A DNA stretch of 64,000 bases from Halostagnicola larsenii XH-48 (lineage in GTDB: Archaea > Halobacteriota > Halobacteria > Halobacteriales > Natrialbaceae). Below the pieces are notes generated by a model. It was not told where the DNA came from. It made no database searches and saw only the letters and a list, made by a program, of their open reading frames with translations. Position numbers and translations under genes: made by a program. Location of the stretch: the NCBI RefSeq assembly GCF_000517625.1, contig NZ_CP007055.1, positions 1,240,001 through 1,304,000 on the forward strand. The letters are read 5' to 3'. Shown in pieces: positions 40,226-56,658 of this stretch (the stretch's first letter is position 1; each line of letters opens with the position of its first letter).

Positions 40226-40332
40226 ATCGAGCGTTTTCGGTTTCGGTTACTTAAGCCCTCCTACGTGCGCGGCGGGTTCAGTTCGGTTTCGTGGTCGAAA
40301 CCATCAAACGCCGGTCGCTCCAACACCAGCAC

Positions 40333-41145
40333 ATGCTCACGAAACGAATTATTCCCTGTATCGACGTCGACCTCGACGAGGACGGCAACCCGGCCGTCTA
40401 CACCGGTGTCCACTTCGAGGACCTGAAATACACCGGTGACCCCGTCGAGATGGCCAAAGCCTACAACGAGTCCGGCGCCGACGAGTTCGTCTTCCTCGAC
40501 ATCACCGCCTCCGCTGAGGGCCGCGAGACGATGCTCGACGTCGTGTCCCGAGTCGCAGACGAGGTGTTCATCCCGCTGACCGTCGGCGGCGGAATCCGAA
40601 CGACCGAGGACATCAAGGAGACGCTTCGCGCCGGGGCCGATAAGGTCTCGATCACTACGGGCGCGCTCGAGCGGCCCGAACTGGTCAACGAGGGCGCTCG
40701 CGCGTTCGGCAGCCAGTGTATCGTGATCAGCGTCGACGCACAGCGTCGGTACGACGAGGCCGGCGAGAACTACGTCGAAATCGACGGCGAATCGTGCTGG
40801 TTCGAGTGTACGAAAAAGGGCGGCCGCGAAGGAACCGGCGTCGACGTCGTCGAGTGGGCTCGCGAGGTCGAATCTCGAGGCGCGGGCGAGTTGTTCGTGA
40901 ACTCGATCGACAGGGACGGGACGAAAGACGGCTACGATATTCCGCTGACCTCGGCCGTCTGCGAGGCCGTCGATACCCCCGTGATCGCCTCCTCGGGCTG
41001 TGGCGGCCCCGAACACATGCACGAAGTATTCACGGAAGCCGATGCCGATGCCGGGCTCGCGGCCTCTATCTTCCATTTCGACGAGTACTCCGTCGGGGAT
41101 GTCAAAGACTACCTCGACGAGCGGGACGTTCCGGTTCGGCAGTAA
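40333..41145 (+). CDS. hisF: Imidazole glycerol phosphate synthase subunit HisF
   Basis: The 270-residue beta/alpha barrel forms imidazole glycerol phosphate from PRFAR and ammonia supplied by HisH. It starts [20 protein letters not shown] and shows [62 protein letters not shown] and [11 protein letters not shown], the usual HisF order. The ATG at 40333 is the family start; the frame runs 42 bases further upstream. It is not next to other his genes, as is common in haloarchaea. Confidence 0.96.
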
Positions 41146-50711: not shown

Positions 50712-51542
50712 ATGATAACGAGCGACTGGGGCGAGTGGCTTGTTCGCGCGATCGAGGACGCCGACCCGGACGGCGTCGCCGTCTGGTATTTCGGCTGTAA
50801 CGGCTTCGCGCTGAAAGGCAGCGAGGGAACGACCGTTTTCATCGACCCCTATCTCGGAACGGGCAGCCCACCGCGAACGATTCGAATGATTCCGGTTCCC
50901 TTCGATCCGACCGACGTAACCAACGCCGATGCCGTGCTCGCGACCCACGAGCACACGGATCACGTCGACGGCCCGAGTCAGGCACCGATCCTCGAGACCA
51001 CCGGCGCGACGATGTACGGACCCGACGACAGCCTCGCCGTCACTCGAGAGGAAGGCTGGACCGACGAGTGGGACGTCACCGACGACCAGTTCGAGGAGGT
51101 ATCCGAGGGAGATACTCTCGAAATCGGCGAGTTTACCGTCCACGTCGAACCCGCGAGCGATGTCGATGCGACACATCCCGTCAGCTACGTCATCGAGCAC
51201 GAGGCGGGAACGTTCTTCCACGGCGGCGATTCGAAACCCGCCGAGGAGTTCGAGCGAATCGGCACCGAGTACGATGTCGACCTGGGCGTGCTCGCCTTTG
51301 GAACCGTCGGGAACGTCCCCGACAAGGAGACCGGCGAGCCGAAACGAACCCGCTGGTACAACGACGAGAATCAGATCATCGAAGCGGCGAACACGCTCCA
51401 GCTAGAGACGCTCTGTCCGAGCCACTGGGACATGTGGAAGGGGCTCACCGCCGATCCGAAAGCGCTCTATCACCACACGAATAGTTTTGAGTACCCGACA
51501 ACTCTCGAGATCATCGAAATCGGGGACCGCGTCGACCTCTGA
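50712..51542 (+). CDS. MBL-fold metal-dependent hydrolase (UlaG-like)
   Basis: The 276-residue protein has the metallo-beta-lactamase motif THEHTDHVDGP, FFHGGDSKPAEE (metal aspartate) and a C-terminal CPSHWDMWKGL histidine. The short N terminus WYFGCNGFALKG and IDPYLGTGSP resemble L-ascorbate-6-phosphate lactonase UlaG-type enzymes. Cytosolic hydrolase of a phosphoester or lactone, substrate unknown. It is a single gene with a TATA-like patch about 20-30 bases upstream. Confidence 0.86.
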   Translation: MITSDWGEWLVRAIEDADPDGVAVWYFGCNGFALKGSEGTTVFIDPYLGTGSPPRTIRMIPVPFDPTDVTNADAVLATHEHTDHVDGPSQAPILETTGATMYGPDDSLAVTREEGWTDEWDVTDDQFEEVSEGDTLEIGEFTVHVEPASDVDATHPVSYVIEHEAGTFFHGGDSKPAEEFERIGTEYDVDLGVLAFGTVGNVPDKETGEPKRTRWYNDENQIIEAANTLQLETLCPSHWDMWKGLTADPKALYHHTNSFEYPTTLEIIEIGDRVDL

Positions 51543-51683: not shown

Positions 51684-53474
51684 ATGAGTTCAGCCGCCGA
51701 CACAGATCAGGTAATCGAAGCGAGTTCTGACGGGGTGACTGTCCGGAAACTATTTGCCGCCGACGAGTTCCCGGTTCCTGCGATTCGATTCGAAATCGAC
51801 TCGAGCCGCGACGAAGCGGTTACCGTCACCGTTTCTGAGGACATCCCCGAATCCTTCCCGATGGACGGCGTCGGATTCCACCCGAACTACTACAGCGAAA
51901 ACTGGACCGCGTTTCAGGACCACCACGTCGAATTCACTCGGACGCTCTCCCCCGAGGAAACGCTCGTCACCGTTTACGGGATCCGAATCGGCGACGACTC
52001 CGAAGCGGCGCAGTTTCTGACCGATTCGGTCACAGTCGAGGTCGAAGATCCCGATGCCCAAGACGAAGACGCTTCAGCCGACGAGGGCGGAGCGCAGGGA
52101 GAGTCGGCGGGGGCGGATTCGGCTGCACGCGACGAAGTCGACGACACGATGATCGACGAGATCATCACCGACGACCGAAACCAGGTCGTCAAAGACATGA
52201 TCGCCGGCGAGTCCGACTCGGTTCCCGGCCTCGAGTCGGATGCCGCGGCTGAAGCTTCGTCCGAAGACGAATCGCTCGCGGACGAGGAAGACGTCGACGA
52301 CGCCGACGAACTCGGCATCGAGGGTGACGGAGAATCTCAGGACGACGGAGACCTCGAGGACGGTGAACAAGCCGATTCCTCTGGAGTCGATCTCGACTTC
52401 GAAGAAGACGAGATTCCGCCGGCGAAAGCGGACGAGTCCGCGTCGGTCGACGATGCCGAACCCGAACTCGAGACCGATTCCGAGGAACGAACGGACAGCT
52501 CCGAGACGCCCGATATCGACGACACGCCACCAGCGGCGGCCGACGACCACGAATCCGATGACGAGGTCGACGCCGGAGCGGTCACTGCAGCGGCGGCCGA
52601 CGAGGCGAGCGACGGCGACGACCGATCGCTCAGCGCCCAACTCGCTGACGAGATTCGCACCGGCTCTGTCAGCGAGCAGGACCTCGAGGTGCTCCGTGCC
52701 GAACTCGATATCGAGATGAACGGGCCGGATCTCGCACGGGTCGACCACCTCCAGTCCCGGGTCGAAGAAGTCGCCGCGTATTCGGGAGCGATCGAAGAGT
52801 TCCTCGACGAATACGGCACCGGCGAACAGATCATCGAGCAGTTCCGCTCCGAACTCGAGAGCGTCGAATCCGAACTCGACTCGATCGATACGCGGGTCGA
52901 CGTTGCCGAGTCCGAACTCGAGGAGGTCGTCGCGGACGTCGATCACGTCGAATCGGAGACGGCGCTGTTCGGCGAAGAGTTACACTCGGCGACGGATCGA
53001 CTCGACGAGGTCGCCGACGACGTCGAGGGTATCGACACCAGATTCGAAGAACTGGAATCCGAAATCGGTGCCGCCCACACCGTCGTAGAGGATCTCGAGG
53101 GCCAGGTCGAAACCAACGAGTCCGATATCGGCGATCTCGAGACGGATGTCGAAGGTGTCGTCGACGATGTCAGGGCCGTCGAGGAGACGGTCGAAGCGGC
53201 CGAAGAAACCGTCGAGGGCGTCGAGGCGACCGTCGATGCTGTCGAAGAAACTGTCACAGATGTCGAGAACACCGTCACGGATGTCGAACAATCCGTTGAA
53301 GACGTCGAAGGGACGATCTCGACGGTCGAAACGTCCGTTGACGAGGTCGAATCGACAGTTACGGAAGTCGAGCAAACCGTCGCGGATGTCGAGACGGAAG
53401 TCGAAACGCTCTCCGAGGAAGTCACCGAACTGAACGACTGGCGCGACCAGCTCGGGTCGATGTTCTCGAACTAA
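51684..53474 (+). CDS. Acidic protein with a long heptad-repeat coiled coil
   Basis: The 596-residue protein has three parts. Residues 1-120 form a beta-rich globular domain (FPVPAIRFEIDSSRDEAVTV and so on). Residues 125-320 are low-complexity and extremely acidic. Residues 330-590 are helical with strong coiled-coil pattern, ending in twelve consecutive heptads of the form VExxVxx from about 499 to 582. No membrane segment. I do not recognise the family; similar long coiled coils serve as spacers in filament or surface-attached proteins. The HisG-like gene follows after 56 bases in the same direction. Confidence 0.75.
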   Translation: MSSAADTDQVIEASSDGVTVRKLFAADEFPVPAIRFEIDSSRDEAVTVTVSEDIPESFPMDGVGFHPNYYSENWTAFQDHHVEFTRTLSPEETLVTVYGIRIGDDSEAAQFLTDSVTVEVEDPDAQDEDASADEGGAQGESAGADSAARDEVDDTMIDEIITDDRNQVVKDMIAGESDSVPGLESDAAAEASSEDESLADEEDVDDADELGIEGDGESQDDGDLEDGEQADSSGVDLDFEEDEIPPAKADESASVDDAEPELETDSEERTDSSETPDIDDTPPAAADDHESDDEVDAGAVTAAAADEASDGDDRSLSAQLADEIRTGSVSEQDLEVLRAELDIEMNGPDLARVDHLQSRVEEVAAYSGAIEEFLDEYGTGEQIIEQFRSELESVESELDSIDTRVDVAESELEEVVADVDHVESETALFGEELHSATDRLDEVADDVEGIDTRFEELESEIGAAHTVVEDLEGQVETNESDIGDLETDVEGVVDDVRAVEETVEAAEETVEGVEATVDAVEETVTDVENTVTDVEQSVEDVEGTISTVETSVDEVESTVTEVEQTVADVETEVETLSEEVTELNDWRDQLGSMFSN

Positions 53475-53530
53475 CCCGCGAGCGAGACAAAACGCAACTC
53501 GTTTACTTCTCGGTTGCAGTTTTTCGGTCA

Positions 53531-54454
53531 ATGGGCGAGACGATCCCGATCGCGATTCCTCGAAAAGGACGGCCACTCGAGTCGGTTCTCGACCGGCTGG
53601 CGAACCGACTGGGAATCGGCGACCTCGCGGACGACATCAGTTCGACGCTCCGACACGAGAAGGCGCTCACGAAAGGATCGCTCTCGAGCGATCACGACGT
53701 CTACCATCGTCTCGCAACGTACAGCACCGTTGAGAACCCGACCGAGCCGGAGTACACGCTGTTTCGGGACGACCGGGCCGGGAAACCGCGGCGAATCGTC
53801 TTCGATAGCGTCACGATTCCGCTCGAGGGTGTCGAGAGCGTTCCCGACGGTACGTCGATACAACTCGTGGGGCGAGAAGAACCGTTTCGCGCCCTGCGAA
53901 CCCACGAGTTCGCGCTCGGATTCGATAGCGCCGACCTCGTCCTCGAGGAAGTCGTCGAACTGCGGCCGGAGCCCTTACAGCGAATCGCGGACGTCAACGC
54001 CCGCATCGACCCGACGGACACCGACGTACGGGTGGTTACCGGTCTCGGCGATACGGTCTATCACACCTTGATGGCGACGCCGGACGCGACGCCGCCGTCC
54101 GAATCGGTTGACCGGGAGTTCCTCGAGAAGTACGCTGGGCCATTGTGTATCGTCCCGCGGTACGAACGACTCGTTCAGGCGGTTCTCGGGACGGACATTC
54201 TCGATGGGATCGACTTCGTGTACCCGGATTCGACGGTCGAAGAAGAGGCGGCCATCGCGGACACGGGGGCTGGCGTCTATCTCACCGTGACCGGTTCGAC
54301 CGCTCGAGAACACGGCCTCTTGCTCGGCGAGCAACTGTTCCCGAGCGAAACGGTCCTGATGGAAAACACCGCGGAAACGGACGCGACCGTCGACGCAGTT
54401 CGTTCGCTGCTGGCCGACGGAGAGACGGAAACCGAACTCGCGATCGGCCGATAA
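53531..54454 (+). CDS. Divergent HisG-like protein (ATP phosphoribosyltransferase fold)
   Basis: The 307-residue protein begins IPIAIPRKGRPLESVLDRLA, which aligns with the HisG start (IALPNKGR). Near the end, YLTVTGSTAREHGLLLGEQL and VLMENTAETD align with the HisG phosphate-binding and C-terminal pattern (GxTLRxNGL ... IAN). The middle (about 75-150) carries long inserts, and the usual DGAIVG-type region is unrecognisable. It may be a HisG-derived enzyme with another role, since the genuine enzyme is usually closer to consensus. It follows the coiled-coil gene and may be co-transcribed. Confidence 0.6.
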   Translation: MGETIPIAIPRKGRPLESVLDRLANRLGIGDLADDISSTLRHEKALTKGSLSSDHDVYHRLATYSTVENPTEPEYTLFRDDRAGKPRRIVFDSVTIPLEGVESVPDGTSIQLVGREEPFRALRTHEFALGFDSADLVLEEVVELRPEPLQRIADVNARIDPTDTDVRVVTGLGDTVYHTLMATPDATPPSESVDREFLEKYAGPLCIVPRYERLVQAVLGTDILDGIDFVYPDSTVEEEAAIADTGAGVYLTVTGSTAREHGLLLGEQLFPSETVLMENTAETDATVDAVRSLLADGETETELAIGR

Positions 54455-54513: not shown

Positions 54514-55098
54514 CTACTCTGTGACCAACTGGCGTTCTTCCTCGTCGCGAATTACCGTGACCTCGCCGTCGCGGACGACGATATCGAGCAACGACGAGAC
54601 GTCGTACTCGCTGTCGACCATCGCGTCGCCGCCGTCGACTTTTCGCATCGCAACGACGATATCGACGATGGTCGCGCCGATCGACTCGAGCGCCTCGGTG
54701 ATCGCTCGAAGCGTCCCGCCGGTACTGAGCATATCGTCGAGCAGGAGCACGTTGTCGCCCTCGTCGACGTCGTTGATGTACATCTCGCTTTTCGAGTACC
54801 CGGTCTCCTGCGTGAGCGAGACTTCGCCCTCGAGTCCGTACTCGCGTTTTCGGATGACGACGAGCGGAATATCCGTCGTCAGCGAAACCGCGGTCGAAAT
54901 GTGAATCCCCATCGCGGCGGGAGTCACGATCTTGTCGACGTTCTCGAGGTCCGCAGCACGGACGATCCGAGTGACGACTTCGCGCAGCAGGCTCGGCTCG
55001 AGCACCGGGACGCAGTTGCTGATCGGGTGGACGAGGTACTCGTAGTCGTCTTTCTCGATGATCGGCGCGTCGTGGACCGACCGCTCCAGTTGTTCCAT
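54514..55098 (-). CDS. hpt: Purine phosphoribosyltransferase, haloarchaeal Hpt type (hypoxanthine/adenine)
   Basis: The 194-residue enzyme starts [20 protein letters not shown] and has the PRPP loop [20 protein letters not shown] and [18 protein letters not shown]. It salvages a purine base with PRPP to the nucleotide; in archaea this group is APRT-like, so base choice (hypoxanthine, guanine or adenine) is not certain. ATG 55098 is about 25 bases after a TTTTAT box on the minus strand (leaderless). It is divergent from the purine/pyrimidine permease, so uptake and salvage share a control region. Confidence 0.9.
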
Positions 55099-55120
55099 GC
55101 CGGTACTTCTTGTGGCGCGA

Positions 55121-55126
55121 ATAAAA
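55121..55126 (-). promoter_or_regulatory. TATA-like box of hpt
   Basis: Minus strand TTTTAT, about 25 bases before the ATG at 55098. It supports the start chosen for hpt. Confidence 0.5.
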
Positions 55127-55164
55127 GCTATTGATCGATGTGTGGTCCGGATGTTTCTGAGTGG

Positions 55165-55200
55165 CGTCGTTTCAGACATCCTTGGGCGTCGTCGTTTCAG
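55165..55200. repeat. Direct repeats in the hpt/permease divergent region
   Basis: CGTCGTTTCAG occurs at 55165-55175 and again at 55190-55200, exactly 25 bases apart. Both lie between the divergent promoters of hpt and the NCS2 permease. They may bind a shared purine-responsive regulator; no such protein is encoded next to them. Confidence 0.45.
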
Positions 55201-55237
55201 GCGTTCCGAAGCCGCGTTGTTTCTCGAGAAGACAAGG

Positions 55238-55244
55238 TATAAAT
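55238..55244 (+). promoter_or_regulatory. TATA box of the NCS2 permease gene
   Basis: TATAAAT centred about 35 bases before the ATG at 55276. The in-frame ATG at 55243 lies inside this box and is therefore not the start. Confidence 0.55.
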
Positions 55245-55275
55245 GGGAAATTCGAGAGGTGAGAGACAACGCTTC

Positions 55276-56658
55276 ATGTCAGGACAGGGAGACAGCGAAA
55301 TAGATCTCGCGTACGAACTCGACGAAAAGCCGCCGGTATCGGAGGCGATCCCGCTCGGCATTCAACACGTTCTGGTGATGATCGTTCCGTCGACCGCGGT
55401 CGCGTTCCTCGTTGCCGGCGAGGTCGGGTTGGGGGCCGCCGATACGGGGTATCTCGTCCAGATGGTCCTTCTGTTCTCCGGGCTCGCGACGATCGTTCAG
55501 GCGTACACGATCGGACCGGTCGGGGCCAAACTCCCGATCGTCATGGGCACGAGCTTTACGTTTCTGGGGGCGGCGAGCGCCATCGGAAGCCAACAGGGAT
55601 TGGCGGCCGTCTTCGGTGCGGTACTGGTCACCGGAATCGTCGTCGAGGGGCTCATCGGCTGGCAGTTCGGACGCATCGAGTCGTTTTTCCCGCCGCTGGT
55701 AACGGGTCTGATCGTGATCATCATCGGATTGTACCTCATTCCGACGGGGATGGAGTACGCCGGGGGCGGCGATCCGGCCGCGACGAGTTTCGGTTCCGTA
55801 CAGAACCTCGGACTCGCGGCGCTCGTGTTGCTTATCGCGGTGTTGTTCAACCTCTTTCTCGACGGCGTGGCGCGAATACTGAGCGTCTTCATCGGAATCG
55901 TCGTCGGCTACGCGGTCGCGATAGCGTTCGGCGTCGTCGACTTCAGTCCGATCGCCAACGCGTCGCTGGTCGAGGTTCCGATGCCGGGCGAATTCGGGTA
56001 CGCGTTTGACCCTGTCGCGATCGTCACGTTCGCGTTTCTCTTTCTCGTCTCCGCGATGGAAACGGTCGGGGATATGTCCGGCATCACCGCCGCCGAGGGT
56101 CGAAACCCCGACCAGGAGGAGTTTCGCGGCGGCATCTTCGCAGACGGACTCATGAGTTCGATCGGTGCAGTTTTCGGTTCGTTTCCGGTGACATCGTTCT
56201 CGCAGAACGTCGGTATCGTCAATTTCACGGGTATCATGAGCAGACATGTCGTCGGGGTGAGCGGTATCTTCCTGACGATCATGGGACTGAGCCCGATCGC
56301 CGGAGCCGTCGTGACGACGATTCCGGAACCCGTGTTCGGCGGTGCCGTCCTCGTGATGGTCGGCATGGTCGCCGCAAGCGGAATGCGCTTGCTGTTTTTG
56401 AACGTGGAGATGAACCGGCGGAACATGGTCATCATCTCGACGTCGCTCGGCCTCGGTCTCGGCGTCGCGGTCGTCCCCGAAGCGCTCCAGGGACTGCCGA
56501 GAGCGGCACGAACGTTCTTCGGTGAAGCGGTCATCATGACAGGCCTATCCGCACTCCTTTTGAATACGTTCGTCCCGGGCGACTCGAGCCCGCTGTTCGA
56601 CGATCCGGCCGAGCCAGCCGATCGGGCCGACGAATCAGCCGCGGTCAGCGACGACTGA
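55276..56658 (+). CDS. NCS2-family purine/pyrimidine permease (xanthine/uracil type)
   Basis: The 460-residue membrane protein has about twelve to fourteen helices. Family marks are [38 protein letters not shown] (the conserved glutamate region, here [14 protein letters not shown]) and [19 protein letters not shown]. It imports a nucleobase such as uracil, xanthine or hypoxanthine with protons or sodium. The C-terminal acidic tail is cytosolic. It is divergent from hpt, which would use the imported base. Confidence 0.92.

Follow-up and report, generated by a model that had tools for sequence, protein, structure and literature searches.

What is the function of a HisG-like protein encoded in a haloarchaeal genome which also carries a canonical hisG? 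The gene lies in a 64,000 nucleotide stretch of the 4.13 Mb genome of Halostagnicola larsenii XH-48; this stretch is referred to here as the window. The initial annotation, made from the DNA letters, suggested that the product could be a repurposed phosphoribosyltransferase or a regulatory paralogue. The open reading frame listing and its translation give an ATG start and 307 codons on the forward strand, with the following features.

53531..54454, + strand: HisG-fold protein of a haloarchaeal family, 307 amino acids
53558..53581, + strand: codons for PRKGRPLE, residues 10-17, the counterpart of the HisG N-terminal P-x-KGR
53870..53956, + strand: codons for GREEPFRALRTHEFALGFDSADLVLEEVV, residues 114-142, a highly conserved block among orthologues
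54278..54307, + strand: codons for YLTVTGSTAR, residues 250-259, the phosphate loop retained, with Tyr250 in place of the Asp that leads it in HisG

Predicted fold and family

The N terminus (AIPRKGR) and the C-terminal phosphate-binding loop (YLTVTGSTAR) that the initial annotation had likened to HisG are both present. HisG (PF01634) was the sole Pfam match at E up to 1, covering residues 179-293 and scoring 17.3 bits against a curated cut-off of 25.5. The sole NCBIfam match at E up to 1 was hisG (TIGR00070) with 12.2 bits against a cut-off of 75.75, so that neither of these two curated libraries gave a match over its cut-off. When 34 orthologues were searched, 28 matched Pfam HisG at E up to 1 and 16 matched NCBIfam hisG; any other family was matched by at most seven. 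An HMM built from 37 mostly haloarchaeal HisG rows, with E calculated for one sequence and filters off, matched 79 of 121 orthologue rows at E<1e-3 and none of the 121 reversed or the 121 shuffled copies.

The AlphaFold model of the protein has a pLDDT of 87.1 and a pTM of 0.80. All 50 Foldseek matches listed were HisG, with E from 4.8e-9 to 8.4e-7, and the best 34 rows from VIA-align were all HisG or ATP phosphoribosyltransferase (Z 12.9-15.4), the next row having a Z of 9.9. The type II periplasmic-binding-protein fold (OpuBC, ProX, EgtU and others) also has two lobes and its rows, with Z 9.3-9.9, were under every HisG row among the matches listed. The structure prediction and comparison proposed in the initial annotation thus gave a strong match to HisG, and not the lack of one that it had named as grounds for abandoning its reading. 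The model aligns to residues -1 to 212 of the long-form enzyme 2vd3 (target length 289), at which point its own length ends, and therefore nothing in the HisG-like protein corresponds to the C-terminal histidine-binding domain. Extra elements in the model, namely helices (∼30-48 and 57-64), a strand (74-78) and a loop (∼140-165), agree with the inserts anticipated in the middle of the protein. The order of the predicted secondary structure elements appears to fit the HisG core. The assignment of the fold to HisG is very likely right.

Profile comparison gave a weaker signal. The orthologue profile compared with haloarchaeal HisG using hhalign gave a probability of 5.6 in local mode and 25 in global mode, and adding five solved HisG sequences left the local result unchanged. 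Given this weak match, the equivalence of residues in the middle of the protein rests on the order of elements rather than on a residue-level structural alignment. The protein by itself had no match among the sequences of solved structures at E up to 1, and the orthologue profile had five, none of them HisG. The best of these was Staufen at E 0.21, and the segment PEYTLLRDDRxGKPRR does resemble a double-stranded-RNA-binding hairpin; as the score is at chance level this reading was dropped.

The protein thus shares with the HisG catalytic core (PF01634, TIGR00070) the fold of both lobes, the N-terminal P-x-KGR and the TG(S/T)T phosphate loop. It differs in scoring below the curated cut-offs, in having Tyr for the Asp of the PRPP loop and in the addition of helices and a strand at ∼30-87 and of the later loop. 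Compared with long-form HisG it is without the C-terminal regulatory domain. The short-form HisG of the HisZG complex is likewise a core without the histidine-binding domain; however, the HisG-like protein differs from it in the PRPP-loop change from Asp to Tyr and in coexisting with a canonical HisG of 284 amino acids which is long-form-like.

Active-site residues

Conservation was examined in 111 orthologue sequences, which are not all independent, several species being entered from two sources. Residues R11, K12, R14, R87, R88, R115, D135, E238, E239, G255 and T257 are invariant in all 111, as is G13, and T254 is found in 108; the TG-x-T phosphate loop is therefore kept. The leading Asp of the HisG PRPP loop is replaced by Tyr250 in 111/111 and also in nine further distinct orthologue copies. 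The hhalign alignment pairs Tyr250 with the Asp of the 2vd3 motif DLSSTG. The equivalent residue is D156 in the canonical HisG of the same genome and it is invariant in the 37 HisG rows compared, one sequence being counted twice. Two other acidic residues invariant in these rows, D52 and D152, correspond by element-wise matching to Pro118 and Gly246 in the HisG-like protein.

The Asp of the PRPP loop in HisG contacts the ribose. The likeliest reading is that the pocket still accepts a phosphorylated ligand and that the classical ribose contact has been lost. That all orthologues read have Tyr at this position argues against conventional ATP phosphoribosyltransferase chemistry.

It may still be asked whether the protein functions as an ATP phosphoribosyltransferase whose PRPP site has been rebuilt, redundant in most haloarchaea and, in a genus designated g45, the sole enzyme of this kind. 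The predicted HisG fold would agree with this, as would the invariant arginines. In PMC9734150, Arg56 together with Arg32 of P. arcticus HisG was proposed to stabilise the leaving pyrophosphate, and according to PMC10795190, Arg73 contacts the γ-phosphate of ATP. Matched by the order of elements, R14, R88 and R115 could be the counterparts of Arg32, Arg56 and Arg73. Against this stands Tyr250, and the remaining evidence comes from the distribution of canonical hisG.

Canonical hisG and the genus g45

The initial annotation placed the gene away from the his genes and suggested checking the rest of the genome for a canonical hisG. It is correct that no his gene adjoins the HisG-like gene, although one is present in the same window, 12.4 kb upstream.

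40291..41145, + strand: hisF, the nearest histidine gene found

A canonical hisG was found elsewhere in the genome with an E of 1.6e-51 (G000:C1:2621606-2622064, locus L001). The strong structural match together with this canonical hisG means that the description of the gene as derived from HisG, and not needed as this organism's own histidine enzyme, stands. This is the part of the original proposal that survives; between a repurposed transferase and a regulatory paralogue the sequence leaves the choice undecided.

HisG scored above the cut-off in 112 of 116 genomes of the class, so a second ATP phosphoribosyltransferase would be redundant nearly everywhere, which counts against the protein being a working copy of that enzyme. 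The exceptions were three g45 genomes and G034, whose assembly consists of 120 contigs. In the ten of the 116 sampled genomes without a match to the HisG-like gene, canonical hisG was always present (E 1e-50 to 1e-52).

In genus g45 canonical hisG was absent from 6/6 genomes when searched using both the HMM and a protein query. These genomes are 91-99% complete and one is a single contig. HisE, HisI and two strong HisA/HisF matches were found in all six, the histidine genes searched being HisG, HisE, HisI and HisA/HisF. The HisG-like gene is present in all six g45 genomes, and no other HisG relative was found in them. If g45 makes histidine, then the first step would most obviously fall to the HisG-like protein. 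The initial annotation had reasoned that a histidine prototroph with no other hisG would make this gene the true enzyme; its own genome does contain another, whereas g45 comes close to the case described. However, the g45 copies show no return to HisG residues. In the five distinct copies, from five of the six genomes, the Tyr is kept, and in four of the five Asn replaces the Ser of the phosphate loop. The lack of canonical hisG in g45 is the main unexplained result and it keeps the possibility of a working ATP phosphoribosyltransferase alive, though with the Tyr retained even here we regard it as unlikely.

In g45 (e.g. locus L177 of genome G042) the HisG-like gene adjoins a gene for GTP cyclohydrolase III in 5/5 distinct loci read, and in L178 it is flanked on the opposite side by BtpA. 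The search of the other HisG-like loci gave no GTP cyclohydrolase III, and hence no pathway is read from it.

The protein might alternatively be a non-catalytic partner regulating canonical HisG or another PRPP enzyme. A HisG fold with an altered active site would suit such a role, and there is a precedent in HisZ, a histidyl-tRNA synthetase paralogue described in PMC10795190 as regulating short HisG. The two genes are nevertheless not tied to each other: g45 retains the HisG-like gene in the absence of canonical HisG, and the ten sampled genomes without the HisG-like gene retain canonical HisG. The canonical HisG of the H. larsenii genome furthermore aligns along its entire length to long-form 2vd3, and it should therefore have a regulatory domain of its own. 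A regulatory partner thus seems very unlikely.

Genomic context, distribution and proposed role

The features upstream of the HisG-like gene are as follows.

50712..51542, + strand: UlaG-like hydrolase of metallo-beta-lactamase fold, the usual neighbour one gene further upstream
51684..53474, + strand: acidic coiled-coil protein whose N-terminal beta domain is conserved, the usual upstream neighbour
53489..53505, + strand: promoter-like block AAAACGCAACTCGTTTA, conserved, containing a TATA-like GTTTA that begins 30 bases ahead of the ATG

As had been noted, the HisG-like gene immediately follows the acidic coiled-coil gene. The coiled-coil protein has an N-terminal beta domain of ∼120 amino acids, with no Pfam match shown over it, followed by an acidic linker; the model of this domain is of low confidence (pLDDT 69). 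Among the best 80 of 187 loci, a sample biased towards near relatives and synteny, 79 carry the hydrolase upstream on the same strand, 74 the coiled-coil gene (within 1.1 kb) and 73 both. Where the coiled-coil gene is missing, in six loci, the hydrolase adjoins the HisG-like gene. These counts would favour the HisG-like protein sharing one pathway with the hydrolase and the coiled-coil protein. However, amongst 20 tested genomes (of 41) with no match to the HisG-like gene, the hydrolase was present in 18 and the coiled-coil N-terminal domain in 16, to be compared with 15 and 13, respectively, of 15 genomes which have the gene. The HisG-like gene is also located away from its usual neighbours in g45 and in G050, and has a promoter-like block of its own. 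A shared pathway is therefore judged improbable. The association with the coiled-coil gene is one of position and can be broken, and because the neighbours are kept without the HisG-like gene, the coiled-coil gene can be missing and the HisG-like gene can be relocated, the neighbours are a weak guide to function.

Several further observations were made on the surroundings of the gene. A UlaG-like metallo-hydrolase match was present in 33 of 35 haloarchaeal genomes tested. The gene in G050 is beside serA and a TrmB-type regulator. Outer open reading frames recurring in 50 to 57 loci, named from representatives, belong to dph2 and to DUF5805 plus a tyrosine recombinase; those matching DUF5805 and the tyrosine recombinase occur in 50 and 52 of the best 80 loci, for example downstream of the HisG-like gene in L086 (7167-8634) and L090 (7495-8932). 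In the window, an archaeal hypoxanthine/guanine phosphoribosyltransferase and a xanthine permease lie beside the HisG-like gene in divergent orientation (54514-56658), and this pair was seen in five Halostagnicola-type loci (L002, L003, L004, L032 and L033) among the loci compared.

In many Natrialbaceae loci the promoter-like block, GAAACGCAACTCGTTTA, spans -42 to -26, the exact 17-mer being found in 33 of 176 loci with one copy each. GTTT starts at -29 to -31 in 76/80 loci and in 0/80 for a control window inside the gene. Judged by known haloarchaeal promoters, this would fit the TATA box of a leaderless transcript and suggests that the gene forms an independent transcription unit. The inverted repeat AAACG-N5-CGTTT within 53489-53505 overlaps the TATA-like element and is a possible operator. 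When the H. larsenii genome was searched with the pattern RAAACGCAACNCGTTTA, the sole site at 0 or 1 mismatch was the one belonging to the HisG-like gene, so a shared regulon was rejected; within 3 mismatches there were 43 sites against 14 for a reversed-pattern control.

Of the 391 Halobacteria genomes sampled, 350 have an orthologue of the HisG-like gene. A phylum-wide profile search using a 34-row alignment gave a full-length match in 72/81 genomes of the class and in 0/311 others. Weak partial matches were seen in 40 of the 311 genomes outside the class, with a best E of 1.2e-4 and many of them falling on profile positions 228-289; they are presumed to represent ordinary HisG. The closest named relative among the matches listed is from Halostagnicola sp. 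A56, at 90% identity. The dN/dS of the gene was 0.105, 0.119 and 0.152 for three pairs (NG86), which indicates purifying selection and, with the wide distribution, a real gene. In five genomes (G020, G076, G032, G052 and G080) the identity to the H. larsenii copy was 81, 77, 78, 72 and 68%, respectively, for the HisG-like protein and 87, 83, 79, 80 and 73% for canonical HisG. These values indicate that the HisG-like protein is evolving somewhat faster than canonical HisG, yet under clear constraint.

A mobile or viral origin was considered and rejected. Phage records gave no match to the protein at E up to 0.01, a single plasmid record matched (a 987-kb Natrinema replicon) and the best viral structure matches, to giant-virus histidine-enzyme proteins, had a TM of 0.38 of the query. 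On the plasmid record the gene at the position of the coiled-coil gene is labelled as an AAA family ATPase.

The best reading of these results, to which we give a probability of roughly 0.6, is that this is a haloarchaeal protein derived from the catalytic core of HisG and having a different role. The core would have been duplicated long ago to give a haloarchaeal protein with a new job. The cleft between the two lobes may still bind a phosphorylated ligand, such as a nucleotide or a phosphoribosyl compound, which would be held through the TG(S/T)T loop and the set of invariant arginines. The protein would then either sense this ligand or act on it in a reaction other than the ATP phosphoribosylation of histidine synthesis; since conservation is high we lean slightly towards a new enzyme. 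It is possible, though rather doubtful, that the protein represents another class of enzyme with the HisG fold, its PRPP site rebuilt, which nearly all haloarchaea have kept beside the classical enzyme. It would then either catalyse the first step of histidine synthesis unaided in g45, or transfer a phosphoribosyl or nucleotidyl group in some as yet undescribed pathway.

A search of the literature on HisG paralogues, HisG structures and conserved haloarchaeal genes found nothing on this gene among the titles and openings of abstracts listed, and a term search of the main text of PMC8305020 did not find the word HisG. With the gene being present in about nine out of ten of the haloarchaea sampled, it belongs to that part of their core which is still unexplained. 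The protein is probably a clear case of a well-studied phosphoribosyltransferase fold taking on a new role, and genus g45, which has no canonical hisG yet keeps later steps of the pathway, makes the question of a role in histidine synthesis directly testable.
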